Program-made: the position numbers and the translations under genes
From: Psychroserpens damuponensis
Lineage (GTDB): Bacteria > Bacteroidota > Bacteroidia > Flavobacteriales > Flavobacteriaceae
Assembly: GCF_000826655.1 (NCBI RefSeq)
Contig: NZ_JXJO01000011.1
Coordinates: 1-64,000 of the forward strand
Direction of reading: 5' to 3'
DNA: 64,000 nucleotides
In this document: in pieces, positions 8,080-60,800 of the stretch
Layout: every line of letters begins with the position of its first letter
Numbering within the stretch: position 1 is the stretch's first letter
The notes under the pieces: model-generated
What the model was told of the DNA's origin: nothing
Seen by the model: the letters and a program-made list of their open reading frames with translations, nothing else
The model's database searches: none

Positions 8080-8120
8080 TCTTCTATTTTTGTCTGTTTG
8101 ACCGTTTTCTTCCGAAGTTA

Positions 8121-8128
8121 CAAAGATA
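8121..8128 (-). promoter_or_regulatory. -7 element upstream of sufE
   Basis: CAAAGATA on the plus strand is TATCTTTG on the minus strand, about 41 bases before the sufE ATG. A copy of the dispersed word TTCCGAAG (8111-8118) lies between it and the gene. Confidence 0.55.
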
Positions 8129-8136
8129 CGACATCT

Positions 8137-8631
8137 CTATTGCTTCTCGATCATTGTTTTAATCGATAACATCTTTTCAACGATAGCTTTTATCGATTTT
8201 GGCGGATTTCCATGATCAAAAGACACTGTTTTATATGAATTTTCATCTTTAGAGATTTCTAAAGTTGCAATAGCAGCAGCATCAAATCTAAAATTAGTGG
8301 AAGGAGCCTCCAATTTTGGAAGCATCTTTTCGTCTATATCGCTTAGCAGTTTCATAAGGTCTACCTGTTCTTTGGCAGGAATTATAGTTGAGGTAATGAA
8401 CTTTAAAGTATTATCTGAAGTATATTTTATAGAATCACCTTCAATCCAAATTTCTAAATAAAAACCTCGGGTAATAGCGCGATAATTAAATTTGACATCA
8501 TTTTGAATTGCTCTTTCAGTCATTTCTACTGTTGTCGTTTCTGCAGTATTTTGATTCGCTAATTGTGCTTTATTTTTATCGCATTCTTTTGCTGAAATAA
8601 GCACAATAAACATACATATAATTAGTTTCAT
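8137..8631 (-). CDS. hypothetical exported protein between sufS and sufE
   Basis: A 164-residue protein with a short hydrophobic N-terminus (MKLIICMFIVLISAKEC), so it is probably exported. The cysteine at 17 is not in a good lipobox, so lipidation is doubtful. The remainder is a small alpha/beta domain (FNYRAITRGFYLEIWIEGDSIKYTSD ... AAIATLEISKDENSYKTVSFDHGNPPKSI). I do not recognise a firm family; it loosely resembles small DUF6438-type proteins. It sits on the same strand between sufS (54 bases upstream) and sufE (57 bases downstream), but a periplasmic protein is unlikely to act directly in Fe-S assembly. Confidence 0.7.
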   Translation of the reverse strand: MKLIICMFIVLISAKECDKNKAQLANQNTAETTTVEMTERAIQNDVKFNYRAITRGFYLEIWIEGDSIKYTSDNTLKFITSTIIPAKEQVDLMKLLSDIDEKMLPKLEAPSTNFRFDAAAIATLEISKDENSYKTVSFDHGNPPKSIKAIVEKMLSIKTMIEKQ

Positions 8632-8685
8632 ACTATTCTTTTTTTAATGGTTACACGAGTAATATTACAAAAAAGAAGCCAAACT

Positions 8686-9900: not shown

Positions 9901-9905
9901 ATGTA

Positions 9906-9913
9906 CAAAGTTA
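9906..9913 (-). promoter_or_regulatory. -7 element five bases before the sufS start
   Basis: CAAAGTTA on the plus strand is TAACTTTG on the minus strand. Transcription would begin at about the A of ATG 9900, which suggests a leaderless mRNA. It faces the padR promoter about 80 bases away. Confidence 0.5.
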
Positions 9914-9978
9914 CGAGATGTTTACTTAAAATAATATGCCAAAAACGAAACTTATGTCTTTTTTAATATTTTATTACA

Positions 9979-10014
9979 ATACATTTAAATAAAATGTATA
10001 TTTGTAAAATGTAT
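9979..10014 (+). promoter_or_regulatory. padR promoter with overlapping inverted repeat (candidate autoregulatory operator)
   Basis: TATATTTG (9997-10004) matches the Bacteroidota -7 element and ends four bases before ATG 10009. ATACATTT (9979-9986) and AAATGTAT (9992-9999) form a perfect 8-base inverted repeat with a 5-base spacer, overlapping the -7 element. AAAATGTAT then recurs as a direct repeat at 10006-10014, across the start codon. PadR-family regulators commonly bind ATGT/ACAT half-sites in their own promoters, so autoregulation is a reasonable inference. Confidence 0.6.
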
Positions 10015-10772: not shown

Positions 10773-10874
10773 CTATCATTTCATATCAAACGAGGCTGTT
10801 CTACATATGCTTATCAAAATGAAAGGTTAATAACGAACAGTATGTGACCATTAAAAAACAATACCTAATTACAC

Positions 10875-11054: not shown

Positions 11055-12700
11055 AATATTTTAGCACTTTAGTTTGCGTATTGGCTTTAAGCCCACTTAA
11101 CGCACAAACAGATCTAACACAACAAATTGATATATTGTTTGATAGTTACAAATCTGATGAGCAACCAGGTTTAAGTGTGAAAGTTTTAAAACATGGCAAG
11201 ACCATCTATTCTAAAGGGTTTGGGCTTTCTAATTTGGATTATAATATCAAAAACTCAGATTCTACTGTTTTTAGTTTAGCATCCATTGCAAAACAATTTA
11301 CTGCAGCTGCCATATGGTCTTTGATTGAAGAGGAAAAACTGAATCTAGAGGATAACTTACATCAATTTTTTCCAAATTTTCCAGATTATGGCAAAACCAT
11401 TCAAATCAAACATTTGCTAAATCATTCAAGTGGAATTAGAAATTATCATACCACCATGTTTTTGTCTGGTTTTGACCCTAACAGAGATTATTATGATAAC
11501 GCTTTTGTTCTAAATCTAGCTAAAAGACAAAAACACCTTGACTTTGCTCCTGGCGAAAAAATCATATATTCTAACACAAATTACAACCTACTAGCTTTAA
11601 TTATAGAACAAATTTCGGGGCAAAATTTAGATGAATACCTTAAAACTAACATTCTTATACCCTTAGGAATGACCCATACTTTTGTTAGAGTTTCTCATGG
11701 CACAGTCATAAAAAATAAAGCGATTGGATATCAAAAACACAACGATAATTTTGTATACAATACATCAACGCAATTAAGTTATGGTGCAGGAAGCATGGGA
11801 AGTAATCTTAAAGATTTAGCGATTTGGGCCACAATGCTCAATGGTAACCATGATCAATTTAAAGAACTGGCAACGTTTCTTATAACTTCGGAAATTCTAA
11901 CAACCGGAAAAAAAGCAAATTATGCAAGAGGTGTAATGATTGACGAATATAAAGGGCTTAAAACTGTGAGCCATAGCGGTTATGGTTTTGGAGGACAAAC
12001 TCAGCTCTTAACACTACCTGAAGCACAAATTAGTATAATTATATTAACCAATTTGCAATCTATAAACCCAAGGCCTATATCATATCAAATTTTGGATCTA
12101 TTATTACCTTCAAAACAAACTGAAGTTGTATCTACTGATAAATTAACACGTTTTAAACCACAACAACTAAATGTATTTACAGGAGATTATAAAGAAGTTA
12201 ATAGTGATATGATCATGCAAATTTCCGAAGAAAATGACACCTTAAAAGCTATAGGTTCTATGGGAAAACAGCACATTCCTTTATTGCAAGTTGACACAAA
12301 TAAGTTTGTAAGACGTCACGCACAGCATGTCACCTACGATTTTACCAAAACACCTAATTATGATTTGATAATCTCATTTTCAGGTACACCTTTTTATTTT
12401 AAACGCGCTACACTAATCACCGAAAATCCTTCTAATTTAAACGATTTTGTAGGTGATTATTTTTCCGAAGAACTACAAACAAATTATACGTTTTTTATAG
12501 ATGATAATACACTCAAACTAAGCTATAAAAATCATGATAACATCACGTTATATCCAATTCAACATTATAGTTTTGGCAATCATGACAGGACTTTATATGA
12601 GTTTACAACAAATACAAAGGGTAAAATAATTGGAATGTTATTGTCCTGTGACGGACAAGTAAGTCACATTGAATTTGTTAGAGATCAAACCCAATATTAA
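11042..12700 (+). CDS. serine hydrolase (beta-lactamase / penicillin-binding-protein-like), exported
   Basis: With the start at ATG 11042 the product has 552 residues and a clear signal peptide (MSIIKYFSTLVCVLALSPLNAQ). Starting at ATG 10952 would prepend 30 residues that read through the overlapping 59-residue gene, so I reject it. The class C beta-lactamase-type catalytic domain shows S81-x-x-K (SIAK), Tyr-x-Asn (YSNTN, about 178) and a His-Ser-Gly box (SHSGYGFGG, about 315). A C-terminal region of about 150 residues follows, as in DUF3471-type esterases. The substrate is unknown: peptidase, esterase or cell-wall enzyme. It overlaps sufD convergently by 23 bases. Confidence 0.88.
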   Translation: MSIIKYFSTLVCVLALSPLNAQTDLTQQIDILFDSYKSDEQPGLSVKVLKHGKTIYSKGFGLSNLDYNIKNSDSTVFSLASIAKQFTAAAIWSLIEEEKLNLEDNLHQFFPNFPDYGKTIQIKHLLNHSSGIRNYHTTMFLSGFDPNRDYYDNAFVLNLAKRQKHLDFAPGEKIIYSNTNYNLLALIIEQISGQNLDEYLKTNILIPLGMTHTFVRVSHGTVIKNKAIGYQKHNDNFVYNTSTQLSYGAGSMGSNLKDLAIWATMLNGNHDQFKELATFLITSEILTTGKKANYARGVMIDEYKGLKTVSHSGYGFGGQTQLLTLPEAQISIIILTNLQSINPRPISYQILDLLLPSKQTEVVSTDKLTRFKPQQLNVFTGDYKEVNSDMIMQISEENDTLKAIGSMGKQHIPLLQVDTNKFVRRHAQHVTYDFTKTPNYDLIISFSGTPFYFKRATLITENPSNLNDFVGDYFSEELQTNYTFFIDDNTLKLSYKNHDNITLYPIQHYSFGNHDRTLYEFTTNTKGKIIGMLLSCDGQVSHIEFVRDQTQY

Positions 12701-13991
12701 CTCCCAATTTATTAGCTATAATTTTAGTGATGCGTTGTTTAATTTCAGGAATTTTCACCGAGTCTAATACGTTATTACTAAATGCAAACATTAATAATGC
12801 TTTAGCTTCTTTTTCTGGAATACCACGAGAACGCATATAAAACATAGCACTTTCATCAAGTTGTCCAATTGTACAACCGTGAGAACATTTCACATCATCT
12901 GCAAAAATCTCTAACTGAGGCTTGCTGTTAATTGATGCTTTGTCACTCAACAAAATATTGTTGTTAGATTGAAATGCATTTGTTTTTTGAGCTTCTTTAT
13001 TTACTAGTACTTTTCCATTAAAAACACCTGTAGCATTATCTGCAAAAATACCTTTGTAATCTTGATGACTTTCACAATTTGGTTCTATGTGATGTACCAA
13101 TGTGTTGTGATCTACATGTTGTTTATTTCCAATGATGGTTACGCCATTTAAAGTAGAGTCCATACGCTCTCCATTTTGGTAAAAATTAAGATTGTTACGG
13201 GTTAATTTTCCTCCAAATGTAAAGGTGTGCATTGAGACGTGGCTCTCTCGTTTTTGATTTACAGATGTGCTATCAATTAGTGACGCACTTTCTTTATCAT
13301 TTTGAATTTTATAATAATCTACAATAGCTCTTTTAGCTGCAAATATTTCGGTAACGCTATTGGTGAGAACAGGGTTTTCTGTTAAACTTTGATGACGTTC
13401 GATAATTTGAACATGAGAATTTTCATCTACAACAATTAAATTACGTGGTTGTAAAAGTAAAGCCGATTCATTTCCTGTAGAAAAATGAATAATTTGAATT
13501 GGTTTGGCGACTAATTTGTTCTTCGGAATATGAATATAAGCACCTTCTTTAGAAAACGCAGTATTTAATGATGAAATCCCATCTTTTGAAGCTACTTTAT
13601 TAAAATAGTTTTCAATAATAAGCTGATACTTAGGCTTTGTTAATGCAGATGACATTAAACATACATCTATACCATCATGTGTGGTTTGTGATAAGTGAGA
13701 AGAGTATTTACCGTCAATGAAAATAATTTTATAGCTATCAATATCATGAATAAAGTATTTTTTTATATCACTAAATTCGATGGCATTTTCTTGCTTAGGA
13801 AACACACTGTAATCATGTTTTAAAACACTATTTAACGATGTGTACTTCCATGCTTCATCACGCTTAGAAGGAAATCCTTTGTCTTCAAAAATTTTAATCG
13901 CTTCATTTCGAACATCATGTACAGGAGCATCTACATCTACTGTGTCTTCAAATGCCATAAATGACGATACTAACTTATCTTTTAATTCCAT
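12678..13991 (-). CDS. sufD: SufD, Fe-S cluster scaffold subunit
   Basis: A 437-residue SufD. The N-terminus has KDKLVSSFMAFED and PSKRDEAWKYTSLNSVLKHDY, the usual RDEAWKYT motif. The beta-helix core carries THTLVHHIEPNCESHQDYKG-like sequence and ends DDVKCSHGCTIGQLDESAMFYMRSRG, the conserved SufD signature. It forms SufBC2D with SufB and SufC for cluster assembly. It follows sufC after 90 bases. Its 3' end overlaps the convergent hydrolase gene. Confidence 0.97.
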   Translation of the reverse strand: MELKDKLVSSFMAFEDTVDVDAPVHDVRNEAIKIFEDKGFPSKRDEAWKYTSLNSVLKHDYSVFPKQENAIEFSDIKKYFIHDIDSYKIIFIDGKYSSHLSQTTHDGIDVCLMSSALTKPKYQLIIENYFNKVASKDGISSLNTAFSKEGAYIHIPKNKLVAKPIQIIHFSTGNESALLLQPRNLIVVDENSHVQIIERHQSLTENPVLTNSVTEIFAAKRAIVDYYKIQNDKESASLIDSTSVNQKRESHVSMHTFTFGGKLTRNNLNFYQNGERMDSTLNGVTIIGNKQHVDHNTLVHHIEPNCESHQDYKGIFADNATGVFNGKVLVNKEAQKTNAFQSNNNILLSDKASINSKPQLEIFADDVKCSHGCTIGQLDESAMFYMRSRGIPEKEAKALLMFAFSNNVLDSVKIPEIKQRITKIIANKLGVNIGFDL

Positions 13992-19548: not shown

Positions 19549-20322
19549 TTATTCGACGAAACGCAATAAAATGTAAGATAATTCCTCTTTATTTTCAATA
19601 TGACTCATATGACCTAAAGACAATGTTTCACATCTTATCGAAGTATTTTTAGTTTCTGTTAAAATCAATGCTCCTTTAATAACAGGATCCTTTTCACCAA
19701 TAATAATTAATTTTTTAGCATCAAGATTATTATAGAACTCAAACTTATCTTCTCTCAACATCATACCTTCTTGTCCTGCAACATAACCTTGTGCCGAGGT
19801 TTTTAATGCTTGCTCTAAAACTTTTTTAACCTCTATTTTATGAGTTCGTCTACTTTCCGAAGAAAACAAATTCGTAAACGACATCCTTACCATGTTTTCA
19901 AAATTGGTTTGAACCATGAGATTAGCTCGCTTTCTCAACGCTCTAAGCTCATCATCATCTTCATGAAATGTAGAATTCATAAGGCACAAACCTTGTACTG
20001 CATTCGGGTTTTTCTCAGCCAAGGCTAAAGCGACATAACCACCCATGGAGTGGCCAATTAAGGTATATGTTTTTAGTTTTAAATGATTTACGACGGCTAA
20101 AACCGCATTTGCCATATCACCCATGGTATGAACATATCCTTGACATTCAGTTTGACCATGACCTAATAGATCAACACAAATAATCCTATTATTTTTTGAT
20201 AGTTGCGGTTTTAAATCATTCCACATAGACGAATTTTCTAAAAACCCATGCAGTAAAATTACAGCCTCTCCTTGACCTTCATCTTCATAATAAACCGGAC
20301 TTTCTCTATGGTATAGTATCAT
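19549..20322 (-). CDS. alpha/beta hydrolase
   Basis: A 257-residue alpha/beta-hydrolase fold protein. It shows the oxyanion region LLHGFLENSSMW (24-34), nucleophile Ser92 in IGHSMGGYVALALA, a likely acid Asp212 in GEKDPVIKG and a catalytic His at 238 or 241 in LGHMSHIE. It lacks a signal peptide and should be cytoplasmic. The substrate is unknown; the size and motifs suit an esterase or a MenH/BioH-like enzyme. It is divergent from brnQ. A TATCTTTG element ends five bases before its ATG. Confidence 0.9.
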   Translation of the reverse strand: MILYHRESPVYYEDEGQGEAVILLHGFLENSSMWNDLKPQLSKNNRIICVDLLGHGQTECQGYVHTMGDMANAVLAVVNHLKLKTYTLIGHSMGGYVALALAEKNPNAVQGLCLMNSTFHEDDDELRALRKRANLMVQTNFENMVRMSFTNLFSSESRRTHKIEVKKVLEQALKTSAQGYVAGQEGMMLREDKFEFYNNLDAKKLIIIGEKDPVIKGALILTETKNTSIRCETLSLGHMSHIENKEELSYILLRFVE

Positions 20323-20399: not shown

Positions 20400-21692
20400 T
20401 TGAATTCTAGAAAAGAACTTTTTATCACCAGTTTTGGTTTATTCTCTCTGTTTTTTGGAGCAGGAAATTTATTATTGCCACCACTTTTAGGGTATAATGC
20501 TGGCGACAATTGGTTTTGGGTTGCCTTAGGATTTATGATAACTGCTGTTGTCATCCCAATTATAGGTATTTTAGCACACGCCAAGTTACAAGGCACGTTA
20601 TATGACTTTGGCAAAAAAGTATCTCCGCAATTTAGTCTTATTTATTGTATTTTAATTTATGTGATCGCTGTAGCGATACCGTCTCCTAGAACAGCAGCTG
20701 CAACGCATGAGATTGCAATTCATCCTACTTTTGGCACCAGCCCATTATTAACTAGTACGGTTTATTTTATTCTTGTTTTGGTTTTTGTTCTTAATCGCTC
20801 AAAAATATTAGGGTTTATAGGTAAATTTCTAACCCCTTTAATAGTGATTATGTTATTGACGGTTATTGGCATTGGGTTGTTTTCTTCGGAAATGCTCACA
20901 TCCACATCAGAAATGAGCACACCATTAGTTTCAGGGATTTTAGAAGGTTACCAAACCTTTGATGCTATTGGAGCTGTTGTCGTTGGAGCTGTGATAATAA
21001 TCTCTATTAATTTAAGACATAATGGTAGTTTTGAAGAGAAAAAATCGCTTATAGCAAAATCTGGTTGGATTGCAGGATTTGGTTTATTTATTATATATGC
21101 CGGACTCATTTCGGTTGGTGCCTATTACGGTTCAGAAATTAGCATCAACGATACATTGCCAAATGACATGCAGCGTGCGAATCTCCTTCGCAAAATTAGT
21201 TTATCATCTCTTGGAGGTTTTGGCAACACTGTTTTAAGCATTTTAATCTCTCTCGCTTGTTTTACAACTGCCATAGGTATTGTTGCAGGTACAGCAGATT
21301 ATTTTAAAGGCCTCATGGGAAATTCCCAAACAGTATATATTGCAACCGCAATTTTGGCAAGTGCACTAGGCATTGTGGTTGGACAATTAGATTTCAACTC
21401 TATTATTATTGTTGCAGTGCCAGTTTTATTATTTATTTACCCTATAACCATTGTACTTATTATATTAAATGTACTACCAAAACGATTTTCAACACCTGTC
21501 GTATTTAGAGCTGTTGTGATTACAACATTTTTATGTAGCATCCCAGATGTTGTAGGTTTTATTTCTCCTTCGGAAGACTTAGAACAACTTACACAATATA
21601 TTCCTTTAGCTCAATATAGTTTAGGATGGGTTTTACCTGCTTTAGTGGCTTGTTTGGTAGCTGGATTAGTTTCTAAACCTAAAAAAGCCTAA
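20400..21692 (+). CDS. brnQ: BrnQ-type branched-chain amino acid transporter, TTG start
   Basis: A 430-residue inner-membrane carrier of the LIVCS family with about twelve hydrophobic segments. The hallmark N-terminal sequence is ELFITSFGLFSLFFGAGNLLLPPLLG in helix 1. Members import Leu, Ile and Val with a cation. The only start compatible with an intact first helix is TTG 20400; the first in-frame ATG lies within helix 2. The gene has its own -7 element and ends in a strong terminator whose stem overlaps the stop codon. Confidence 0.93.
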   Translation: MNSRKELFITSFGLFSLFFGAGNLLLPPLLGYNAGDNWFWVALGFMITAVVIPIIGILAHAKLQGTLYDFGKKVSPQFSLIYCILIYVIAVAIPSPRTAAATHEIAIHPTFGTSPLLTSTVYFILVLVFVLNRSKILGFIGKFLTPLIVIMLLTVIGIGLFSSEMLTSTSEMSTPLVSGILEGYQTFDAIGAVVVGAVIIISINLRHNGSFEEKKSLIAKSGWIAGFGLFIIYAGLISVGAYYGSEISINDTLPNDMQRANLLRKISLSSLGGFGNTVLSILISLACFTTAIGIVAGTADYFKGLMGNSQTVYIATAILASALGIVVGQLDFNSIIIVAVPVLLFIYPITIVLIILNVLPKRFSTPVVFRAVVITTFLCSIPDVVGFISPSEDLEQLTQYIPLAQYSLGWVLPALVACLVAGLVSKPKKA

Positions 21693-21732: not shown

Positions 21733-23025
21733 TTAATTATTCATCAACTCCTCAATCTCGTCAGCTTCAATTGGAATATTTCGCATTAAATTAAAAGGCT
21801 CTCCAGATTCTTGGATGACTACATCATCTTCTAAACGAATACCAAAACCTTCCGCAGGAATATAAATTCCTGGCTCTACCGTAAATACATTATTGGCCTG
21901 CATTGGCTCTGTTAATATTCCGTAATCATGTGTATCTAATCCTATATGATGAGAAGTACCATGCATAAAATACTTTTTATACGCTGGCCAATCTTTATCT
22001 TCATTTTGTACATCTGCCTTGTCTAGCAACCCAAGCCCTAATAATTCCGAAGTCATTAATTTTCCAACCTCAATATGATATTCTGCCCACAAAGTTCCTG
22101 GAGTTAATAATTTTGTAGCTTCGTTCTTTACACGGTTTACAGCATTGTACACCGCTTTTTGACGATCGGTAAATCGTCCAGAAACAGGTATCGTTCTAGA
22201 CATATCACTTGCGTAATTGGCATATTCTGCAGCAACATCAAACAAAATTAAATCACCAGCTTTACATTGCTGATTATTCTCTATATAATGTAAAACGTTT
22301 GCATTATTACCAGAAGCAATAATTGGAGTGTATGCAAAACCTTTAGAACGATTATTTAAAAATTCATGCATAAACTCAGCCTCTATATTAAACTCCCAAA
22401 CATCTGGTTTTACATAATTTAATATACGACGAAATCCTTTTTCGGTAATATCACAAGCTTGTTGCATAAGATCAATTTCAATTTGATCTTTAACAGAACG
22501 TAAGCGCTGTAAAATAGGATTGCTTTTTGCAACACTATGCGCAGGATATCTATCTTTTAACCATTTTGTGAAACGGTCTTCGCGAGTTTGGGTAACTACA
22601 GATGCTCTATAATGCTCATTAGTATTAATATAAACGGTATCACATTGCGTCATGAGTTCAAACATGATTTTCTCCATGTCTTTAAGCCAATACACGGTTT
22701 TAATTCCGCTTGTTGCTAAAGCAGCTTCTTTAGTTAATTTCTCACCTTCCCAAACTGCAATATGCTCATTCGTTTCGGTTAAAAACAAGATTTCTCTATG
22801 ATGTTCTTTTGGGCAATCTGGAAAAAGCACTAAAATACTTTCTTCTTGATCTACACCACTTAAATAGAAAATATCTCGATGCTGTGCAAAAGGCAACGTA
22901 CTATCTGCACTTACTGGATAAACGTCATTAGAATTAAAAACCGCTAGACTACTCGGTTTCATTTTAGACATAAAATTTTTACGGTTTTTTATAAAAAGAT
23001 TGCTGTCTATTTTGTGATATTTCAT
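21733..23025 (-). CDS. pepP: Xaa-Pro aminopeptidase (M24 family with AMP_N domain)
   Basis: A 430-residue metallopeptidase. Residues about 5-140 form the AMP_N domain and 175-425 the pita-bread M24B domain. The dinuclear metal ligands are visible: LFDVAAEYANYASDMSRTIPVSG (two Asp), HGTSHHIGLDTHDYG (His), VFTVEPGIYIP (Glu) and GIRLEDDVVI (Glu). It removes N-terminal residues preceding proline. There is no signal peptide, so it should be cytoplasmic. The gene stands alone and convergent with brnQ. Confidence 0.94.
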   Translation of the reverse strand: MKYHKIDSNLFIKNRKNFMSKMKPSSLAVFNSNDVYPVSADSTLPFAQHRDIFYLSGVDQEESILVLFPDCPKEHHREILFLTETNEHIAVWEGEKLTKEAALATSGIKTVYWLKDMEKIMFELMTQCDTVYINTNEHYRASVVTQTREDRFTKWLKDRYPAHSVAKSNPILQRLRSVKDQIEIDLMQQACDITEKGFRRILNYVKPDVWEFNIEAEFMHEFLNNRSKGFAYTPIIASGNNANVLHYIENNQQCKAGDLILFDVAAEYANYASDMSRTIPVSGRFTDRQKAVYNAVNRVKNEATKLLTPGTLWAEYHIEVGKLMTSELLGLGLLDKADVQNEDKDWPAYKKYFMHGTSHHIGLDTHDYGILTEPMQANNVFTVEPGIYIPAEGFGIRLEDDVVIQESGEPFNLMRNIPIEADEIEELMNN

Positions 23026-25183: not shown

Positions 25184-28021
25184 ATGTTAAAATATATCTG
25201 TTATTTTATTTTTGGAGCATCAGTTTTAGCTAATGCTCAACAACCGTCTACGTCGTCACAAACTATTAAAGATGCACTTAACAAAAAAGAGCAACTCACA
25301 AAAACTTCATTAGTTAAAAACGTTGCTTTTACCAATATTGGACCAACTGTTATGAGTGGTCGTGTTACTGATTTGGCAGTAAATCCAGACAACCCAATTG
25401 AATTTTACGTTGGCTATGCATCAGGAGGCGTTTGGCACACCATAAATAACGGTACAACGTTTACACCTATTCTAGATTCTTCGGAAACTCAAAACGTTGG
25501 AGATCTTGCTGTTGATTGGAAATCTAAAACCATTTGGGTTGGAACGGGAGAAAACAATGCCTCTCGCTCTAGTTATGCAGGAATTGGCGTTTTAAAATCT
25601 ACCGATAACGGTAAAACCTGGCAACATATGGGATTGAGAGATTCTCACCATATTGGTCGCATACTCATTAACCCTAATAATCCAGATGAAGTGGTTATTG
25701 GTGTTACTGGTCATTTATATTCTGCAAATCAAGAACGAGGAATTTACAAAACTACAGATGGTGGTAACACTTGGTCGCAAAAGCTATTTGTTGACGATAT
25801 GAGTGGTATTATTGATGTACAAACCAATCCTAATAACTTCAATTTAATGTTCGCGTCGTCATGGACTAAAGATCGTAAAGCATGGAATTTTGATGGTAAT
25901 GGCAATAATTCTGGGATCTACAAAAGCACTGATGCTGGTGATACTTGGACTAAAGTCTCTATAGAAAATAGTGGTTTTCCAACAGGACAAGGCGTTGGTA
26001 GAATTGGCTTAGCGGTTTATGATGATAATATAGTTTACGCAGTTCATGACAGCCAATTTCGTAGACCTTCCGAAGAAAAAAAAGAACCCTCAAACGTATT
26101 ATCAAAAGACGATTTTAAAACGATGACTACTGATGAGTTTTTAAAATTAGACGATAAAAAATTAAATGGCTACTTGAAAATGAATGGGTTTCAAGAGAAA
26201 TACAGAGCTGAAAATGTTAAACAAATGGTAAGAAGTGGCAATGTAAAACCTATTGATTTGGCAAGTTATTTAGAAGATGCCAATTCTATGTTATTTGACA
26301 CTCCAGTTATTGGTACTGAAGTTTATAAAAGTACAGATGGAGGTGTTACTTGGAAAAAAACACACGACGATTATCTAGATGATATTTACTACAGCTATGG
26401 ATATTATTTTGGTCATATTTATGTAGCTCCAAATAATGCAGATCATATTTATATTTATGGTGTGCCAATCGTTAAATCAAAAGATGGTGGTAAAACATAT
26501 ACTTCAATAAGCGCAGAAAATGTTCATGCAGATCATCATGCGCTATGGATTAATCCAAAAAACCCAAATCACTTAATTAATGGTAATGATGGTGGTGTAA
26601 ATATCACGTATGATGATGGCGAAAATTGGATTAAAAATAACTCGCCTGCTGTAGGACAATTCTATGCAATTAATGTAGATAATGAAAAACCATATAATGT
26701 ATATGGTGGCTTACAAGATAATGGTGTTTGGAAAGGCACATTTGGTGCTCCCGAAAATAAAGAATGGCACCAAACTGGTCAATATCCCTGGGAAAGTATA
26801 ATGGGTGGAGACGGCATGCAAATTCAAATTGATAATAGAAATCACAACGTTGTTTATACAGGATATCAATTTGGAAACTACTACAGACTTAATTTAGAGA
26901 CAGAAGAGTTTACCTACATTCAGCCAAAGCATGAGTTAGGGGAAAGTCCGTATCGTTTTAATTGGCAAACACCAATTTTACTCTCACCTCACAACCAAGA
27001 TATTTTATATTTGGGTGGTAATAAATTAATGCGTTCTATGAATCAAGGAACCGATTTTACTGCCATTTCTGGTGATTTAACCAATGGTGGCAAAAAGGGA
27101 AATGTCGCTTATGGTACTTTATCAGCTATTAGCGAATCCCCTTTTCAATTTGGCTTAATTTACACAGGTAGTGATGATGGCCTAATTCATGTTACAAATG
27201 ATGGTGGCGGAAATTGGAGAAATATTTCTAACACCTTACCAAAAGATCTTTGGGTAAGTCGCGTAGTCGCCTCACAACATAAAAAAGAACGGGTTTACGC
27301 TACATTAAACGGTTACCGTTGGGACGATTTTAAAGTCTACGCGTACATGAGTGATGATATGGGAAAAACCTGGAAAGATATTAGCGCTAACATCCCAACA
27401 TCTCCTGTGAATGTGATTAGAGAAGATTCTGAAAATGAAAACATATTATATTTAGGAACCGATAATGGTGCTTATGTATCGTTTAACAACGGAACTAGCT
27501 GGGAAGCATTTAGCAACGGACTTCCAAATGTTGCTGTGCATGATATCGTGATTCAACCCGAAGCAAAACATTTATTATTAGGAACTCATGGTCGTAGTAT
27601 TTATCAAACAGATCTCACACCACTTCAACAAATGAGTGATAGCATGAAATCTAAAAACACAACGCTTTTTAATGTAAATGATGCGAGACATTCTTCACGC
27701 TGGGGAAATGCATGGAGCAAGTGGTTTGACACCTTTGAACCTAAAACAGACGTCACGTTTTATTCTAATGTTTCCGAAGAAAAAACAATGCGTATTTATT
27801 CTGAAAAAGGAGCCCTTGTAAACCAAGTAAAAATTAATGCAGATAAAGGCTTTAATTATACAGCATACGATTTAACAGTAACTGAAAAAGGTAGAAAAGC
27901 ACTATTAAAAGAAAACACTAGTATTGATATTAATAAAGCTAAAAATGGCAAATATTATGTGCCAAAAGGCAAATATACTATTCAAATTGGTGATGAAAAA
28001 ACGACATTTGAGGTTAAATAA
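25184..28021 (+). CDS. large exported beta-propeller protein with Asp-box (BNR) repeats
   Basis: A 945-residue protein with a signal peptide ending NAQ (residue 19). It carries many Asp-box motifs of the S/T-x-D-x-G-x-T-W type: STDNGKTW, TTDGGNTW, STDAGDTW, STDGGVTW, SKDGGKTY, TYDDGENW, TNDGGGNW, SDDMGKTW and FNNGTSW. This predicts one or two VPS10/sortilin-like or sialidase-like propellers. A non-propeller insert lies around residues 295-360 (EKKEPSNVLSKDDFKTM) and a small C-terminal beta domain follows residue 830. These proteins are often called glycosyl hydrolases, but I see no catalytic residues that would establish enzymatic activity. Confidence 0.85.
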   Translation: MLKYICYFIFGASVLANAQQPSTSSQTIKDALNKKEQLTKTSLVKNVAFTNIGPTVMSGRVTDLAVNPDNPIEFYVGYASGGVWHTINNGTTFTPILDSSETQNVGDLAVDWKSKTIWVGTGENNASRSSYAGIGVLKSTDNGKTWQHMGLRDSHHIGRILINPNNPDEVVIGVTGHLYSANQERGIYKTTDGGNTWSQKLFVDDMSGIIDVQTNPNNFNLMFASSWTKDRKAWNFDGNGNNSGIYKSTDAGDTWTKVSIENSGFPTGQGVGRIGLAVYDDNIVYAVHDSQFRRPSEEKKEPSNVLSKDDFKTMTTDEFLKLDDKKLNGYLKMNGFQEKYRAENVKQMVRSGNVKPIDLASYLEDANSMLFDTPVIGTEVYKSTDGGVTWKKTHDDYLDDIYYSYGYYFGHIYVAPNNADHIYIYGVPIVKSKDGGKTYTSISAENVHADHHALWINPKNPNHLINGNDGGVNITYDDGENWIKNNSPAVGQFYAINVDNEKPYNVYGGLQDNGVWKGTFGAPENKEWHQTGQYPWESIMGGDGMQIQIDNRNHNVVYTGYQFGNYYRLNLETEEFTYIQPKHELGESPYRFNWQTPILLSPHNQDILYLGGNKLMRSMNQGTDFTAISGDLTNGGKKGNVAYGTLSAISESPFQFGLIYTGSDDGLIHVTNDGGGNWRNISNTLPKDLWVSRVVASQHKKERVYATLNGYRWDDFKVYAYMSDDMGKTWKDISANIPTSPVNVIREDSENENILYLGTDNGAYVSFNNGTSWEAFSNGLPNVAVHDIVIQPEAKHLLLGTHGRSIYQTDLTPLQQMSDSMKSKNTTLFNVNDARHSSRWGNAWSKWFDTFEPKTDVTFYSNVSEEKTMRIYSEKGALVNQVKINADKGFNYTAYDLTVTEKGRKALLKENTSIDINKAKNGKYYVPKGKYTIQIGDEKTTFEVK

Positions 28022-42240: not shown

Positions 42241-43113
42241 CTTCTTCTTATTGGCTAGATAAACACCTAATAAAATAATCATACTAGCAACTATTTGTAA
42301 AACCCCAAAAGTTTCGCCATCTAAAAACCCCCAAATTAAGGCAACAATTGGCATTATATACGTAACTGAAGATGCAAAAACGGGTGTAGAGATTTGAACC
42401 AATGTGTTAAATAAAACTTTAGCAAGCGCAGTTCCAAAAAAGGATAAAATAACGACATATACTATTGACATTTTAAAATTTGGGTGCTCTAAAGTTTCCG
42501 AAGAAAAGAAATCTGTAAACAATAATATGATAACTGCAGGAATAAAAATAGCTACGTAATTACCTGTAGCTATACTCAATGGTTTTACGTTTTGGAGATA
42601 CTTTTTTATAATATTTACATTTAATGCATACATCACTGTTGAAATAATTACGAAACTTGCATACAAATAATTTTGGTGTGGATTTAAATCTGCGCCTTGC
42701 ATTATTAGTATACTTGTACCTATAAACCCAATGATAACTCCAAAAAGTTGACGTTTAGTAAAGCCTATTTTAAAGATTGCAAATCCCAACAAAATAGCAT
42801 TTAAGGGTACTAACGAATTAAGAATTGAGGTAATTGCGCTATCAATTTCAGTTTCGGCAATAGCAAATAAAAACGCTGGAATAAACGACCCAAGAAAACC
42901 CGAAACAACAACCCATTTCCATTCCCTTTTTTGTATTGATTTTAAGCTTTTTAATCCCACTGAAAATAGAAAAACTCCTGTAATTATAGTGCGCAATGCA
43001 CCTAATTGAAAAGGTGTTAAACCGAGTAGCGCTTTTTTAATTAATATGAATGAACTTCCCCAAATCACTGACAAAACCAGTAGAAAAATCCATTTTTTCG
43101 TATTATCATTCAT
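42235..43113 (-). CDS. EamA/DMT family transporter
   Basis: A 292-residue inner-membrane protein with ten hydrophobic segments and two EamA repeats. WIFLLVLSVIWGSSFILIKKAL begins repeat 1 and YASFVIISTVMYALNVNIIKKYL repeat 2. Drug/metabolite transporters of this kind export amino acids or metabolites; the substrate cannot be predicted. It stands alone between two terminators and diverges from the HMA lipoprotein gene. Confidence 0.92.
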   Translation of the reverse strand: MNDNTKKWIFLLVLSVIWGSSFILIKKALLGLTPFQLGALRTIITGVFLFSVGLKSLKSIQKREWKWVVVSGFLGSFIPAFLFAIAETEIDSAITSILNSLVPLNAILLGFAIFKIGFTKRQLFGVIIGFIGTSILIMQGADLNPHQNYLYASFVIISTVMYALNVNIIKKYLQNVKPLSIATGNYVAIFIPAVIILLFTDFFSSETLEHPNFKMSIVYVVILSFFGTALAKVLFNTLVQISTPVFASSVTYIMPIVALIWGFLDGETFGVLQIVASMIILLGVYLANKKKT

Positions 43114-43206: not shown

Positions 43207-43617
43207 ATGAAGACATTAAAAAACATATTGGCTATTGCATTGATTTCTATTGCTGTGGTTGCTTGTAAAAGTGAAAAAGAACCTGAAGTTAAAACAGTAG
43301 AAACGGCATCAAACATCAATACAAAAACGGCTAAAAAATTAGACCCTAATGCCACGTATGCTAAAGCAGAATTTGGTATAGAAGGGATGACATGTGCTAT
43401 GGGTTGCGCAAAAGCAATTGAAAAGAAAATGGCCAAAATGGATGGTGTAAAATCTGCTAAAGTAGATTTTGAAAAAGAATTAGCCATGGTTGAGTATGAT
43501 GAAGCTATGGTAACTCCAAAAACTTTAGAAGAAGCTGTTGCAAAGGCAGGTGATACTTATAAGGTAAAAGATATGAAAACAGTTGATTCTTTTTCTTCGG
43601 AAGAAAAGCAAGACTAA
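43207..43617 (+). CDS. lipoprotein with heavy-metal-associated (HMA) domain
   Basis: A 136-residue protein with a lipobox AVVAC (Cys20) and an HMA domain at about 50-125. The metal site is MTCAMGC (Cys63, Cys67), a CxxxC rather than the CxxC of most copper chaperones, a variant seen in Bacteroidota lipoproteins of this type. AKMDGVKSAKVDFEKELAMVEYDEAMVTPKTLEEAVAKAG is otherwise typical. It would hold or transfer a soft metal in the periplasm. It has its own promoter and terminator, so it is a single-gene unit. Confidence 0.9.
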   Translation: MKTLKNILAIALISIAVVACKSEKEPEVKTVETASNINTKTAKKLDPNATYAKAEFGIEGMTCAMGCAKAIEKKMAKMDGVKSAKVDFEKELAMVEYDEAMVTPKTLEEAVAKAGDTYKVKDMKTVDSFSSEEKQD

Positions 43618-44702: not shown

Positions 44703-45305
44703 TTACACTGTCAACTTTTCTATTTGTAGTGTATGATATTTTCCGAAGAAAATCAAAGCCAAAATAGCTCCAATGGTGGCAAAAAGTATATCAGATTGCG
44801 TATCCCAAATATAACCTTGTGTTCCTAAAAAAGAATCTCCTCCTTCACCTGTGCTTAACGACACTGCCCATTCTATAAACTCATACGTGACACTAATAGC
44901 CATTGCAATACAAACCACGATAAAATTGAGCCAACTGTTAGAATTCACCACGTTTTTCCTAAGTAACACTTCTCTAGTTATCATGGCTGGCACAAAGCCT
45001 TGTGCAAAATGTCCGAGTTTGTCATAATTATTTCTACTATGGTTAAAGGTTTCTTGAATCCAATCAAATAAAGGTACTTCGGCATACGTATAATGACCTC
45101 CAATAATTAAAATAACGCAGTGAAAAAAGATAAGTACATAGACAACATTAGTAAATCTAAACTTTTTAAATGTAAACATAAGCACTAAAACACCAATTAC
45201 TGCTGGCGACACTTCTAGACACCATGTAAAGTATTCAAATGGCTTAATTGCCGACCATATAAGCAATACTATTATTAAAATTAAAAGTGTATATATAAGT
45301 TTCAT
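44703..45305 (-). CDS. DUF2238 (YjdF-like) membrane protein
   Basis: About 200 residues with six hydrophobic segments. Conserved motifs are NNYDKLGHFAQGFVPAMITREVLLR and YEFIEWAVSLSTGEGGDSFLGTQGYIWDTQSDI, diagnostic of DUF2238. I prefer ATG 45305 (MKLIYTLL) because it leaves 20 bases after the -7 element; ATG 45314 would add MQN. It is divergent from dinB with back-to-back promoters. Function unknown. Confidence 0.88.
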   Translation of the reverse strand: MKLIYTLLILIIVLLIWSAIKPFEYFTWCLEVSPAVIGVLVLMFTFKKFRFTNVVYVLIFFHCVILIIGGHYTYAEVPLFDWIQETFNHSRNNYDKLGHFAQGFVPAMITREVLLRKNVVNSNSWLNFIVVCIAMAISVTYEFIEWAVSLSTGEGGDSFLGTQGYIWDTQSDILFATIGAILALIFFGKYHTLQIEKLTV

Positions 45306-45348: not shown

Positions 45349-46458
45349 ATGCTTAGTGATTTACCAATTAGAAAAATTATTCATGTAGATATGGATGCGT
45401 TTTACGCATCTGTGGCTCAAATGGATGATCCTAGTCTAAAAGGAAAAGCTATTGCTGTTGGTGGTGGAGGCACACGAGGTGTTATAAGTGCTGCAAGTTA
45501 TGAGGCACGAAAATTTGGTGTAAAAAGCGCCATGTCTGGACGATTGGCAATTAAATTATGTCCACATCTTATTTTTGTAAAAACAGATTTTGCGCGCTAC
45601 AGCGAAATTTCTAAAAAGGTACGTAGCATCTTTCTTGAGTATACAGATCTTGTTGAACCCTTGTCATTAGACGAAGCTTATCTTGATGTTACTGATAACA
45701 AAAAAGGACATCCTAGCGCATCAATATTAGCTCAAGAGATTAGATCTCGCATTTTTAATGACGTTGGGTTAACTGCTTCTGCTGGTATTTCTATCAATAA
45801 ATTTATTGCCAAAGTTGCTAGTGATTATAACAAACCTAACGGACAAAAAACAGTAAATCCTGAAGAGGTACTTCAGTTTTTAGAAGATTTAGATATTAGA
45901 AAATTTTATGGTGTTGGTAAGGTAACTGCTGAGAAAATGTACCAAAAAGGAATTTTTACAGGTAAAGATTTAAAATCAAAATCGCTAGACTATTTGGATG
46001 ATAACTTCGGAAAATCTGGACGTTATTACTATCACGTGGTTAGAGGTATTCACACGAGTGAAGTAAAGCCAAATAGAATTAGAAAATCGCTCGCAGCAGA
46101 ACGCACGTTCAAGGAGAATTTATCTTCGGAAATTTTCATGCTAGAAAAACTAGAGCATATTGCAGCAGAAGTTGCTAAACGACTCCACAAAAGTAAAGTC
46201 TCTGGAAAAACAGTAACTTTAAAAATTAAATACAGTGATTTCACATTACAAACTAGAAGTAAAACTTTGCCGTATTTTGTGAATGATAAGGACCTTATTT
46301 TAGACACTGCAAAAGATTTACTATATCAGGAAAAAATGAGTAATTCGGTACGACTATTGGGAATTTCGCTTTCTAATTTAAATACTGAAGATTCTAAGAA
46401 AAAGAAAAAAGTAATACAAGAAGAACCCGTAAGCGTACAATTAAAGTTTGAGTTCTAA
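45349..46458 (+). CDS. dinB: DNA polymerase IV (Y family)
   Basis: A 369-residue translesion polymerase. Catalytic acids are in IIHVDMDAFYASV (Asp14, Asp16) and SLDEAYLDV (Asp-Glu near residue 108). The steric-gate region follows the first motif, TASAGISINKFIAKVASDYNKPNG is the family palm sequence, and the little-finger domain occupies about 235-345. The C-terminus ends VQLKFEF, close to the beta-clamp-binding peptide form QLxLF. The start at ATG 45349 may be leaderless. Confidence 0.96.
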   Translation: MLSDLPIRKIIHVDMDAFYASVAQMDDPSLKGKAIAVGGGGTRGVISAASYEARKFGVKSAMSGRLAIKLCPHLIFVKTDFARYSEISKKVRSIFLEYTDLVEPLSLDEAYLDVTDNKKGHPSASILAQEIRSRIFNDVGLTASAGISINKFIAKVASDYNKPNGQKTVNPEEVLQFLEDLDIRKFYGVGKVTAEKMYQKGIFTGKDLKSKSLDYLDDNFGKSGRYYYHVVRGIHTSEVKPNRIRKSLAAERTFKENLSSEIFMLEKLEHIAAEVAKRLHKSKVSGKTVTLKIKYSDFTLQTRSKTLPYFVNDKDLILDTAKDLLYQEKMSNSVRLLGISLSNLNTEDSKKKKKVIQEEPVSVQLKFEF

Positions 46459-52124: not shown

Positions 52125-52691
52125 ATGAAACGAATTGTAATCTTTGCGTCCGGAAGTGGCACTAATGCTGAAAATTTAATTAAGTTTTTTCACAACAGAG
52201 AATATGCTTCTGTCATTCAGGTACTTACTAACAATCCTCATGCCAAAGTTTTAGAGCGAGCCAAAACCCTTAAAGTTAGTGCCTTATCATTCAACAAAAT
52301 AGCATTTACTCAAACTGATGATGTTTTAAATATACTTAAACATTCAAAACCCGATCTTATTATCCTAGCTGGTTTTTTATGGATGTTTCCGAAGCATATA
52401 TTAAACGAGTTTCCAAATAAAGTCATTAATATTCATCCTGCGTTGTTACCAAAATATGGTGGCAAAGGCATGTATGGCATGAACGTTCACGAAGCAATCG
52501 TTGCTAATAAAGAAACCGAAACCGGAATAACTATACATTATGTCAATGAGCATTATGATGAAGGTGCTATTATTTTTCAGTCGAAATGTGCTGTACTCAA
52601 AACCGATTCTGCTCAAGATGTAGCAGATAGGATTCATGAATTGGAGATGAAACATTTTCCTGAGGTTGTTGATAAATTATTGAAACACTAA
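52125..52691 (+). CDS. purN: phosphoribosylglycinamide formyltransferase
   Basis: A 188-residue PurN that formylates GAR in purine synthesis using 10-formyl-THF. Motifs are IFASGSGTNAENLI at the N-terminus, the catalytic INIHPALLPKYGGKGMYG (Asn, His) and TGITIHYVNEHYDEGAIIFQ (Asp). The gene runs in the same direction as the purF-like gene about 2 kb downstream, although other genes intervene. Confidence 0.97.
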   Translation: MKRIVIFASGSGTNAENLIKFFHNREYASVIQVLTNNPHAKVLERAKTLKVSALSFNKIAFTQTDDVLNILKHSKPDLIILAGFLWMFPKHILNEFPNKVINIHPALLPKYGGKGMYGMNVHEAIVANKETETGITIHYVNEHYDEGAIIFQSKCAVLKTDSAQDVADRIHELEMKHFPEVVDKLLKH

Positions 52692-56946: not shown

Positions 56947-56989
56947 TTTTTAGTCCGTTCGTAATTTCAAGTTTTCCTGTTTCCGAAGC

Positions 56990-57024
56990 ATAAAAAAAGC
57001 AAACCCAAAATGAGTTTGCTTTCT
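56990..57024 (-). terminator. probable terminator after the superoxide dismutase gene
   Basis: On the minus strand AAAGCAAAC pairs with GTTTGCTTT (56996-57004 with 57014-57022) and a T-run follows. It lies about 90 bases past the stop codon. Confidence 0.75.
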
Positions 57025-57110
57025 AAATTTCACTATTAAGATCTCCTTGTTCTGGCTTAGACACTTTGCTTACATAAAATGCAGGCAAGCGTTACCAACA
57101 CAAGAGTTAA

Positions 57111-57719
57111 TTACTTTGCTTCTGCGTAACGACGCTCAACTTCGTTCCAGTTAACCACATTAAAGAATGCGCTAATATAATCTGGTCTTCTGTTTTGGTA
57201 GTTTAAATAGTAAGCATGCTCCCAAACGTCTAATCCTAAAATTGGTGTTCCGCCACAAGTTACTCCTGGCATTAAAGGGTTATCTTGGTTTGGAGTTGAA
57301 CATACTTCAACTTTACCTCCTTTATGCACGCATAACCAAGCCCAACCTGATCCAAATTGTGTTGCTGCTGCTTTACTAAAAGCATCAATAAATTCGTCTT
57401 TTGAACCAAAGGCTGCTTCAATGGCATCTTTTAATTCTCCAGAAAGATATCCTCTATCTTCAGGATTCATAACCTCCCAAAATAAAGAGTGGTTATAAAA
57501 ACCTCCTCCATTATTTCTAACAGCTTTATTATTCATATCTAGGTTATCCAGTATGTTCTCTATAGATTTCCCTTCTAAATCTGTTCCTTCAATCGCAGCA
57601 TTTAACTTTGTAGTATAACCATTATGATGTTTTGTATGATGTATTTCCATTGTACGAGCATCAATATGTGGTTCTAGAGCATCGTATGCATATTTTAATT
57701 TCGGTAATTCGAAAGCCAT
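57111..57719 (-). CDS. superoxide dismutase, Fe/Mn family
   Basis: A 202-residue dismutase. Metal ligands are His27 (MEIHHTKHH), His77 ([11 protein letters not shown]), Asp164 and His168 ([12 protein letters not shown]). The Gly-rich GGGFYN and the Gln in PNQDNPL resemble manganese or cambialistic enzymes more than strict iron ones; the metal is uncertain. There is no signal peptide, so it should be cytoplasmic. It has its own promoter and terminator. Confidence 0.95.
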
Positions 57720-57756
57720 AATATTATCGGTTTTTATAATTAATATTTAATTCATT

Positions 57757-57764
57757 CAAATTTA
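57757..57764 (-). promoter_or_regulatory. -7 element of the superoxide dismutase gene
   Basis: CAAATTTA on the plus strand is TAAATTTG on the minus strand, 37 bases before the ATG. Confidence 0.55.
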
Positions 57765-57833
57765 AGCATAATACAGCGCAATTAAAAATATTAAATATCT
57801 ATGAGTTCATAGATAGTTTTTATAATTTTAAGC

Positions 57834-60800
57834 GTGCAAAATAAATCTCAATTTACAATTTACAATGCTTCGGCAGGAAGTGGAAAAACCTATACACTTG
57901 TTAAGGATTATCTAAGGCTTTTATTTCAATCTAAAAGTAAGCTCTCTTTTAGGCATATTCTAGCGCTCACATTTACTAATAAGGCTGTTGGTGAAATGAA
58001 GGAGCGTATAATTGATATGCTTAGAGCGTTTTCCGAAGAAAAAATAATTGACAGTCCTAACGAGATGTTTACCGACTTAAGTAAAGATCTTCAAATATCT
58101 CCAAAAGACCTTCAAGAAAAATCAAAAGAATTATTAGAAATTATAGTGCATAACTATGCGGCTTTTGATATTTCTACCATTGATAAGTTTAACCATAAAC
58201 TTATTAGAACTTTTGCATTTGACCTTAAACTACCTGTTAATTTTGAAGTTGAATTAGACACCACATCTATATTAGCTAAAGCTGTTGATAAGCTCATTGA
58301 TAAAGCTGGTAGTGATAACGAACTCACAAAAGTCTTGGTCGATTTTGCAATTGAAAAAACTGATGATGATAAAAGTTGGGACATTTCGTACGATTTTAAT
58401 GCCATTGCAAAACTATTAGTTACAGAAAACGATATTGTGTATTTAAATGAAATTAAGGATAAATCTTTAAGTGATTTTAAATTACTGAAAAAGAATATAC
58501 AAAAACAGCGCACTGTATTAACGTCTCAAATAACTGAGGTTGCTCAAGGTGTACTATCTTTAATTGACCAATCAGGATTAGAACATAATGATTTTTCTAG
58601 CAGTTATTTACCAAAACATTTTATTAAACTATCTGAAGAAAATTTTAATGTTTCTTTTAAACCAAAGTGGCAAGTTGATTTAATTGAAGGTGGCTCAATA
58701 TATCCTAAAAGAGTATCAGCGCAAGTTGGAGACACTATTGAAGGGTTACGACCTCAATTAATCGATGCCTTTTTAGATACTAAAACAGCCGTATTTCAAA
58801 TTAAATTCTTAAAAAACGCCTTAAAAAACATTACGCCTTTATCGGTTTTAAGTGCAATTGGTAAAACGCTTCAAGATATTAAAGATGAAGATGACATTTT
58901 ATTAATTTCAGAATTTAATGACATCATCAACACGGAAATAAACCAACAACCAGCTCCATATATTTATGAGCGTATTGGAGAAAAATTTAAACATTATTTT
59001 ATTGATGAATTTCAGGATACTTCGCAATTACAGTGGGAAAATTTAATACCGTTAATTAATAATGTCGTTTCTGGTGAAAATTTAAAAGGGGAAACTGGAT
59101 CAGCCATGCTGGTTGGTGATGCAAAACAAGCTATTTATAGATGGCGTGGCGGACGAGCAGAACAGTTTATCAATCTTTACAACGAGAGCGAACATCCTCT
59201 TGCTGTACAACAAATAGTTAAAAACTTACCCGATAATTACCGTAGTCATAAAACGATTGTCGAATTTAACAACGCGTTTTTTAATCATATTGCTGATGTA
59301 GCATTTACAAATGAAAATCACCAACATATTTATAAAAATGCCTATCAAAATGTCATAATTAATAAAACAGGTTATGTAGATATTTCATTTTTAAACACCG
59401 AAAATGAAGATAATAATGACCTACAATGTGAAGCTGTTTTAAACACTATAAAAAAAGCCCAAAGTAACGGCTTTAAGCTCAAAGACATTTGTATTATTGT
59501 TAGAAAAAAGAATGAAGGTTTTGCAATTGCAGAATATTTAAGTGACCTAAAAATTGATATAATCTCTTCGGAAAGTTTATTACTCAAAAACTCTCCAGAG
59601 GTACAGTTTATTAGCAAAATAATCACATTGAGTTTACAACCTCAAAACGACACAATAAAAACTACGCTCTTACATTTTATTGCTGAAACTAAGTTACAAT
59701 TAGATGACACACATGAATTTTATGACGATCTTGTTCATTTAAAAAATGATTCTTTTTTTGAAAAACTAAACACCTTTGGTTTTGAATTTAACTTTAGTGA
59801 GTTTTTACAACTTCCTATTTATGAAGCTATAGAAAGTATCATTAGGGGTTTTGCACTGAATACTACTTCAAACGCGTATTTACAGTTTTATTTAGATGAA
59901 GTTTTTGATTACTCTCAAAAGTACAATGCTAGTTTTCAAGGCTTCTTAGAGTATTGGGAACGCAAAAAAGATAGCTTGAGTATTGTATCACCTTCTGGAC
60001 AGGATGCTATACAAATTATGACCATTCATAAATCTAAAGGATTAGAATTTCCTGTGGTTATTTTTCCGTATGCCAATCAAAACATCTATTTTAATATAAA
60101 TCCTAAATTATGGTTTCGTGTAAATGAGGATGATTTTAATGGGTTCTCACATTTATATATTAATATGAATGAGGATTTAGAATCTTTTAATGAATTAGGC
60201 GCCGAGATTTACACCAATTATCGTTCGCAATTAGAATTAGATAGCTTAAATCTTTTATATGTTGTTTTAACTCGAGCTGTTGAGCAATTATATATCATTT
60301 CTGAATATGATATCGATAAAAAAACAAGTGGAGAAAAATTAGCGCATTATTCAGGCTTATTAATTAATTACCTTAAATCTATTGGCGCATGGCAGGATCA
60401 TCAATTGGAGTATAGCTTTGGTGAGGCTAGGAAAACTTCCGAAGAAAAAGTAAAAGAAGAGGAACATACTACCATTGTGCAAGGTCAATTAATTTCTACT
60501 AGAAAAGAAGACCACAACCTTAATATAATTACAAATTCTGGCTACTTATGGGATACTGCACAAGAAAAGGCCATTAATCGTGGTGATTTAGTTCACAACA
60601 TCATGGCGCATGTAAAAACAGCTGCCGATGTTGGTTTTGCTCTTGAACATTTTTTGAGTTTAGGTATCATTAATACAGATCAATATGACGAACTAGAGAA
60701 CCTTATGACACGCATTATAAATCATGAACAATTACGATCGTATTTTGATGCCACCAATACGGTTTATAATGAACAAGATATTATCTCTAAAACTGGTAAA

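Follow-up and report, generated by a model that had tools for sequence, protein, structure and literature searches.

A DNA word with an A-rich flank in Psychroserpens as a candidate uptake signal sequence

Why should a single octamer, TTCCGAAG, be found 27 times in 64 kb of a flavobacterial genome when about one copy is expected? The stretch in question comprises positions 1 to 64,000 of contig NZ_JXJO01000011.1 of Psychroserpens damuponensis (family Flavobacteriaceae; assembly GCF_000826655.1) and is called the window here. A sequence-only reading of it had proposed that the word is selected as DNA. We have followed the word through the whole genome (G000), through a complete sister genome of the same genus (G008) and through relatives in the family and order. 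The over-representation acts at the DNA level. With a T in front and a 9-bp A-rich tract on its 3′ side, the word is in our judgment the core of a candidate uptake signal sequence, with a probability of roughly 0.7. Uptake as the agent, the competence of the species and the identity of the protein that reads the word are what we infer.

All 27 copies are exact, 16 on the forward and 11 on the reverse strand, a recount identical to the earlier one, whereas 100 dinucleotide shuffles of the window gave a mean of 0.93 and a maximum of 4. In an order-3 Markov model the word is the top-scoring 8-mer of the window (27 vs. 1.39 expected). CCGAAG occurs 45 times on the two strands together and lies within TTCCGAAG, with TT before it, in 27 of these, both as first counted. 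Across all 106 contigs of the genome (3.95 Mb), the word has 779 forward and 741 reverse copies (1,520 in all); the reversed word, our control for expected counts across genomes, has 72 and 103 (175). A word-to-control ratio of at least 3 was counted as enrichment. The two copies called intergenic both lie outside the listed open reading frames (ORFs) of at least 100 aa, but the first starts at 8110, not 8111. An avoidance of highly expressed genes was not borne out: a 2-kb sdhA free of copies would arise by chance nearly half the time, by arithmetic from 27 copies per 64 kb, and no expression-based test was made.

Codon usage does not account for the excess. The test in G000 covered 294 kb (the window together with contig C1 and 12 kb of C2; longest-ATG ORF rule) and used two nulls: synonymous shuffling inside each gene (100 times) and resampling that was conditioned on the adjoining bases (40 times). 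The 110 coding copies compare with 5.7 and 8.8, respectively, a 12- to 19-fold excess; in 440 kb of G008, 211 copies compare with 14.2 and 20.7. All six frame and orientation classes in G000 exceed both nulls, one of them by a single copy, in agreement with the remark that several reading frames are used. Intergenic DNA has 16 copies against 0.38 expected in G000 and 36 against 0.79 in G008, and is denser in them than coding DNA (0.56 vs. 0.41 per kb in G000; 0.73 vs. 0.54 in G008). Thus, the two outcomes named beforehand as fatal to selection on DNA, counts no higher than a codon-aware background and a favoured Ser-Glu(-Glu) codon pair with no copies elsewhere, did not occur.

The word is part of a longer motif. 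At 126 sites in G000 and 246 in G008, the flanking information lies in T at −1 (0.69 and 0.63) and in A at +8 to +16, and pooled control words give almost no flank signal. The suggestion that copies extend toward TTTCCGAAGAAA thus holds for the 126 G000 sites, with T at −1 in 69% and an A-rich run beyond. Over 392 sites, A averages 0.56 across +8 to +16 (background 0.33) and peaks at +8 to +10 (0.60–0.74) and at +13 (0.58); slight excesses of T occur near −6 and −15, and there is no clear second AT-rich segment one helical turn beyond. The full motif is T-TTCCGAAG followed by the 9-bp tract; written out as the counterpart of a scrambled core, the word-bearing form is TTTCCGAAGAAAA. The enriched variants TTCCGCAG and TTCCGTAG also have an A-rich flank (0.47 and 0.45). 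TTCGGAAG, considered as a separate enriched neighbour, was set aside, since most of it is CTTCCGAAG read from the other strand; T stands at −1 in 1% of cases. All 13 sets from other word-rich genera (2–52 sites per set) exceed the background in A at +8 to +16, if only slightly in g114 (0.36 vs. 0.32); the A signal at +9/+10 is faint in g13 and g78, and g114 has none. At −1, C is commoner than T in g8, g78, g114 and g198, all small samples.

Copies tend to stay in place in relatives that are themselves rich in the word. We made pairwise comparisons of 20-kb sdhA neighbourhoods from 20 of the 22 other Psychroserpens (G011 and G017 are absent) and window positions 18001–50000, with eight species classed as word-rich, eight as word-poor and five as intermediate; control 8-mers had four G/C, including a CG. 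Between rich species, the word was identical in 190 of 356 site-by-species comparisons (53%), as against 12.3% of control 8-mers; these comparisons are not independent, because the species share history, and richness also follows descent. From rich to poor species it was kept in 42 of 347 (12%; control 9.8%), and from rich to intermediate in 49 of 212 (control 11.3%). The same positions serve for comparison in both directions, and from poor to rich the word was kept in 42 of 114. From G000 to G008, eight of ten copies were kept. The commonest replacements in word-poor species are TTCAGAAG (39), TTCTGAAG (27) and TTCCAAAG (19), all single changes in the central CG.

Within the genus, copy numbers range about 8-fold, from 278 (G003) to 2,174 (G008), in genomes of similar size. 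In the family, the ratio reaches at least 3 in 19 of 236 genera (299 genomes, counted by hand); the highest is 10.9 (G299, 2,678 copies) and one of the 19 genera, g34, has only 123 copies. The comparison across genera that had been proposed thus finds the word enriched elsewhere, but patchily. Beyond the family, in 104 other genomes of the order, the top ratio is 2.4 for those with more than 100 copies; one incomplete genome stands at 2.7 with 95 copies. On a six-protein tree of 18 Psychroserpens species, the word-rich label changes twice (about 6 times in shuffles), whereas on single-gene trees (sdhA region, comEC, DUF5689) it changes 3 to 7 times (comEC 5, DUF5689 7). Richness therefore follows descent, not any one of these genes.

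These properties are largely those of known uptake sequences. As described in the passages of a 2006 paper drawn on here, the uptake sequences of Pasteurellaceae and Neisseria lack orientation bias, are denser in non-coding DNA and are found in relatives, and those of Pasteurellaceae also have AT-rich 3′ segments and copies that are stable over long times (PMC1626085). In sequence-level tests of the published traits, seven are found here: over-representation, lack of orientation bias, higher non-coding density, presence in relatives, conservation of copies between species, an AT-rich 3′ motif and encoded competence machinery. Two are not: regular spacing with opposite pairs, and exact copies in excess of one-mismatch copies. 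In the mechanism that we favour, a surface DNA receptor would bind the motif during natural transformation, so that word-bearing fragments would enter preferentially and recombine into the chromosome. The biased import, perhaps with selection for recognisability by kin, would fix new copies made by point mutation and hold existing ones in position across related species. Where a lineage lost the bias, point mutation would erode its copies.

What machinery could do this? In the parts of PMC8459023 consulted, transformation of Riemerella anatipestifer needs ComEC, DprA, ComF and RecA as well as four unusual proteins: a barrel, a DUF5689 protein encoded beside it, an HHH protein and a DUF1343 protein. 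R. columbina is also transformable and prefers its own DNA in competition; in part of the k-mer table, its frequent k-mers are A-rich, and the authors leave a signal open (PMC7965970, in part). Our search covered comEC, the DUF5689 protein and the barrel. All three are encoded in Psychroserpens: comEC is present in 23 of 23 genus members, as is a DUF5689 homologue (56 of 57 chosen genomes). In G000, the barrel (L168, 6631–9411) has a carboxypeptidase-regulatory domain and a TonB plug below cut-off, and the DUF5689 protein (L168, 9392–10873) is encoded beside it; the pair is next to a gene of the endonuclease/exonuclease/phosphatase family. The barrel and DUF5689 pair recurs in all 40 loci retrieved around DUF5689, and 39 of them also have the nuclease (the exception is cut off by a contig end). 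Identity between G000 and G008 is 87% for the nuclease, 60% for the barrel and 32% for the DUF5689 protein; so divergent a pair beside a conserved nuclease suggests allele replacement or very fast change. Sister species (L168 compared with L169, L170 and L188) likewise have DUF5689 proteins 30–32% identical and adjacent nucleases 87–90% identical. The PDB yielded no credible relative of the DUF5689 protein (one match, E 0.25).

Several observations weigh against uptake. DUF5689 and comEC are present in word-rich and word-poor genomes alike. On trees of 20 word-rich and 20 word-poor genomes, picked from the extremes of the counts, word-rich genomes do cluster (barrel, 6 changes vs. 13.6 in shuffles; nuclease, 5 vs. 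13.3), but DUF5689 (9 changes) and the barrel, the two candidates for the receptor, fit word-richness no better than the nuclease, and the DUF5689/barrel type of G000 groups with word-poor species. Most of the genera sampled from the family lack the word, their ratios, judged by eye, being near or below 1. A de novo search of 40 kb from each of nine word-poor genomes of eight genera (G031 was dropped, its contig being 2.5 kb) found a strong other word in one only (G227). Copies are spaced no more regularly than at random (sd/mean 1.05 in G008), nor do close opposite pairs exceed expectation: pairs within 100 bp number 4 in G000 and 14 in G008 (6.0 and 14.6 expected), 4 and 8 of them opposite. 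Finally, the exact copies (126 in G000, 246 in G008) are fewer than the one-mismatch totals (215 and 416). About 131 of the 215 in G000 are expected from composition, and any single one of the 24 variants is far rarer than the exact word (at most 24 copies in G000 and 67 in G008).

Neither by presence nor by trees, then, does a known flavobacterial uptake gene track the word. As to the correlation with competence genes and AddAB asked about at the outset, comEC and AddA are present in every genome examined, word-rich or word-poor, and their presence does not follow the word. Since the uptake genes are shared and their trees fit no better than those of their neighbours, we assign no receptor. 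A second DUF5689 protein (secreted, about 555–585 aa; L256:505–2256, with L250–L255), encoded beside ORFs that by eye are response-regulator-like and acyl-transferase-like, is found in 8 of the 10 highest-count Psychroserpens and in 0 of the 13 others (E 0.001); 12 of the other 15 genus members match only the first part of the query region. The association comprises only 1 to 3 independent pairs on the comEC tree, so no significance can be claimed for it. As a receptor this protein was rejected: outside the genus, a homologous region occurs in 4 of the 20 word-rich genomes and in 8 of the 22 that are word-poor.

Other dispersed words were encountered. G227 (L113, L114; 40 kb) and a Dokdonia metagenome-assembled genome (L010; 11.6 kb) have a palindrome, GCTTTCGCGAAAGC, often extended to CGCTTTCGCGAAAGCG, with 9 and 4 copies, respectively, of the 14-letter core; perhaps it is like the cyanobacterial HIP1 or is another species-specific word. 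In 294 kb of G000 (window, L081–L091, L099), further repeated 10-mers include CTGAATGACA and CAGAATGTGG, with 21 and 20 copies, and in G008 (C1:1–40000; L134, L135) CGGTGGCTC has 14 copies per 40 kb (0.07 expected). In 35–40 kb samples of the word-rich picks G049, G135 and, with words of 7 bases, G262, TTCCGAAG was not the top word.

Some stretches have few copies or none. On C1 the longest gap, from 161.7 to 199.8 kb (38 kb), has none where about 16–20 are expected by arithmetic. It is a polysaccharide cluster, judged from a Pfam scan of 10 chosen ORFs: five glycosyl transferases, a sugar transferase, an O-antigen ligase, an MBOAT acyltransferase, a DegT-type aminotransferase and an ABC transporter with a weak Wzt domain. 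In G008, where 20 kb hold 11 copies on average (248 in 440 kb), a 20-kb stretch with a single copy (L156, G008:C1:1750001–1770000) is likely a mobile island: it encodes two integrases of phage type as well as a C-5 cytosine methylase, which a HATPase-domain protein follows. Another stretch, with three copies, encodes Cas1, a Cas9-like protein and an integrase-like protein.

Could the word instead be a site for a nucleoid-associated or chromosome-organising protein, which would hold or bend the chromosome about every 2 kb with the A-tract aiding the bending? Sites on both strands, within genes and between them, a quasi-palindromic core and the flank itself would suit such a protein. We nevertheless consider it unlikely: a range from 2,174 to 278 copies in one genus is hard to square with a structural need, 38 kb of one contig have no copy, and the majority of the genera sampled in the family manage without the word.

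Chi was left open by the sequence-only reading on account of an AddAB-like enzyme encoded in the window, and an AddA-like gene is indeed there (Table 1); its best model is NF010485 (E 3.1e-85, 287 bits, below the curated cut-off of 650). Known Chi sites, too, are short, over-represented and spread through the chromosome, yet a recombination hotspot read by this AddAB/RecB-like nuclease is quite improbable. The polarity of Chi was sought along the complete G008 chromosome in 22 stretches that total 440 kb, with arms assigned by GC skew (means −0.063 and +0.035), which are approximate because the skew of single stretches is noisy. Forward and reverse counts are 56/51 on one arm and 73/68 on the other, that is, 124 co-oriented and 124 counter-oriented copies, with no heterogeneity between stretches (p 0.80; 20 stretches with at least 5 copies). 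Within genes, the numbers of sense and antisense copies are not significantly different either (49/68, p 0.10; 98/116, p 0.25). A one-sided strand pattern in a list of places in another genome (G001) was, as far as we can judge, an effect of listing, as whole-genome counts are balanced and G008 stretches have copies on both strands. AddA homologues occur in 63 of 63 word-rich and word-poor genomes, while counts vary 8-fold in the genus, and we know of no Chi with a 9-bp flanking preference. The Chi reading fails on both polarity and the ubiquity of AddA, and an FtsK-orienting sequence (KOPS), which should point toward the terminus, fails on the first. The same facts, together with the copy-number range, take the word further from Chi, in line with the earlier leaning toward an uptake or organisation signal.

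The word may also be imagined as the self-mark of a defence or restriction-modification system, selected for presence in the host genome. It is enriched in host DNA and scarce in horizontally variable stretches; restriction words are usually avoided, not enriched, and a methylation tag would need no A-rich flank, making this highly improbable. The chance that a codon, dipeptide or mutational artefact explains the word is close to nil: some frames are favoured (the Ser-Glu frame holds 32 of the 110 coding copies in G000), but two codon-aware nulls, the other frames, the intergenic excess and a conservation that differs, at shared positions, with whether a species is rich or poor in the word all contradict it.

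Table 1. Positions in the window of the copies of TTCCGAAG and of the helicase-nuclease gene
Feature	Position	Strand	Remark
TTCCGAAG	8110..8117	+	intergenic; exact match
TTCCGAAG	11886..11893	-	exact match
TTCCGAAG	12223..12230	+	exact match, then AAAA
TTCCGAAG	12463..12470	+	exact match
TTCCGAAG	13521..13528	-	exact match
TTCCGAAG	19855..19862	+	exact match, then AAAA
TTCCGAAG	20884..20891	-	exact match, then AAAA
TTCCGAAG	21568..21575	-	exact match
TTCCGAAG	22045..22052	+	exact match
TTCCGAAG	25479..25486	-	exact match
TTCCGAAG	26068..26075	+	exact match, then A-tract
TTCCGAAG	27772..27779	+	exact match, then A-tract
TTCCGAAG	28438..28445	-	exact match
TTCCGAAG	28612..28619	+	exact match
TTCCGAAG	30509..30516	+	exact match, then A-tract
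TTCCGAAG	35825..35832	-	exact match
TTCCGAAG	37085..37092	+	exact match
TTCCGAAG	42496..42503	+	exact match, then AAAA
TTCCGAAG	43595..43602	-	exact match, then AAAAA
TTCCGAAG	44741..44748	+	exact match, then AAAA
TTCCGAAG	46005..46012	-	exact match
TTCCGAAG	46124..46131	-	exact match
TTCCGAAG	52387..52394	+	exact match
TTCCGAAG	56981..56988	+	intergenic; exact match
TTCCGAAG	58031..58038	+	within addA-like gene; then A-tract
TTCCGAAG	59566..59573	-	within addA-like gene
TTCCGAAG	60437..60444	+	within addA-like gene; then AAAAA
RecB/AddA-like helicase-nuclease gene	57834..60995	+	context for the Chi alternative, separate from the word

To return to the uptake signal, a wider proposal can be built on it, which we consider less likely than not. 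Flavobacteria may have evolved an uptake-signal system independent of that of Neisseria and Haemophilus, in which a TonB-receptor-like barrel and a fast-changing surface protein import DNA bearing TTCCGAAG and its A-tract. The word would then be a mating label that gates gene exchange between marine species, and its gain and decay would record which lineages exchanged DNA. In the open-licence PMC literature we found no report of an uptake sequence in Bacteroidota, nor of TTCCGAAG as a genomic signal (letter matches were covered in part); PMC5217627 mentions neither the word nor Flavobacteri. The 2006 paper, in the passages at hand, gives uptake sequences in Pasteurellaceae and Neisseriaceae and as then not known in other transformable bacteria (PMC1626085). 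A Bacteroidota candidate would be an independent case of self-recognition in bacterial gene exchange, in a phylum whose essential transformation genes include proteins unlike the known machinery (PMC8459023, in part). The debate over drive and selection could then be tested within a single genus, some of whose species have the word in abundance while in others it is decaying. It would also be indicated which DNA tag to try for transforming marine flavobacteria.

How does the word compare with the systems already known? The Chi of E. coli, GCTGGTGG, is likewise an over-represented octamer, and an AddA-like gene is present here too; the flavobacterial word differs in having no polarity, a flank preference and strong variation between close relatives. 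With the DNA uptake sequence (DUS) of Neisseriaceae it shares many copies and the lack of orientation bias, and the C in place of T at −1 in some genera, from small samples, recalls DUS dialects. The DUS of Neisseria is read by the pilin ComP. The reader there differs from the R. anatipestifer set of barrel, DUF5689, HHH and DUF1343 proteins (PMC8459023, in part), and the DUS is without a flanking motif in the account of PMC1626085, as far as its passages used here go. From the uptake signal sequence (USS) of Haemophilus influenzae and other Pasteurellaceae, whose core is AAGTGCGGT, ours differs in core and phylum, in density (0.39 copies per kb as against about 1), in spacing no more regular than random, in one-mismatch copies that together outnumber the exact ones and in its patchiness even within a genus. 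In other respects the two are alike: a short core with an A/T-rich 3′ side, more than 1,000 exact copies, neutral in orientation, in genes and between them and denser between, at positions conserved in relatives (PMC1626085, in part).

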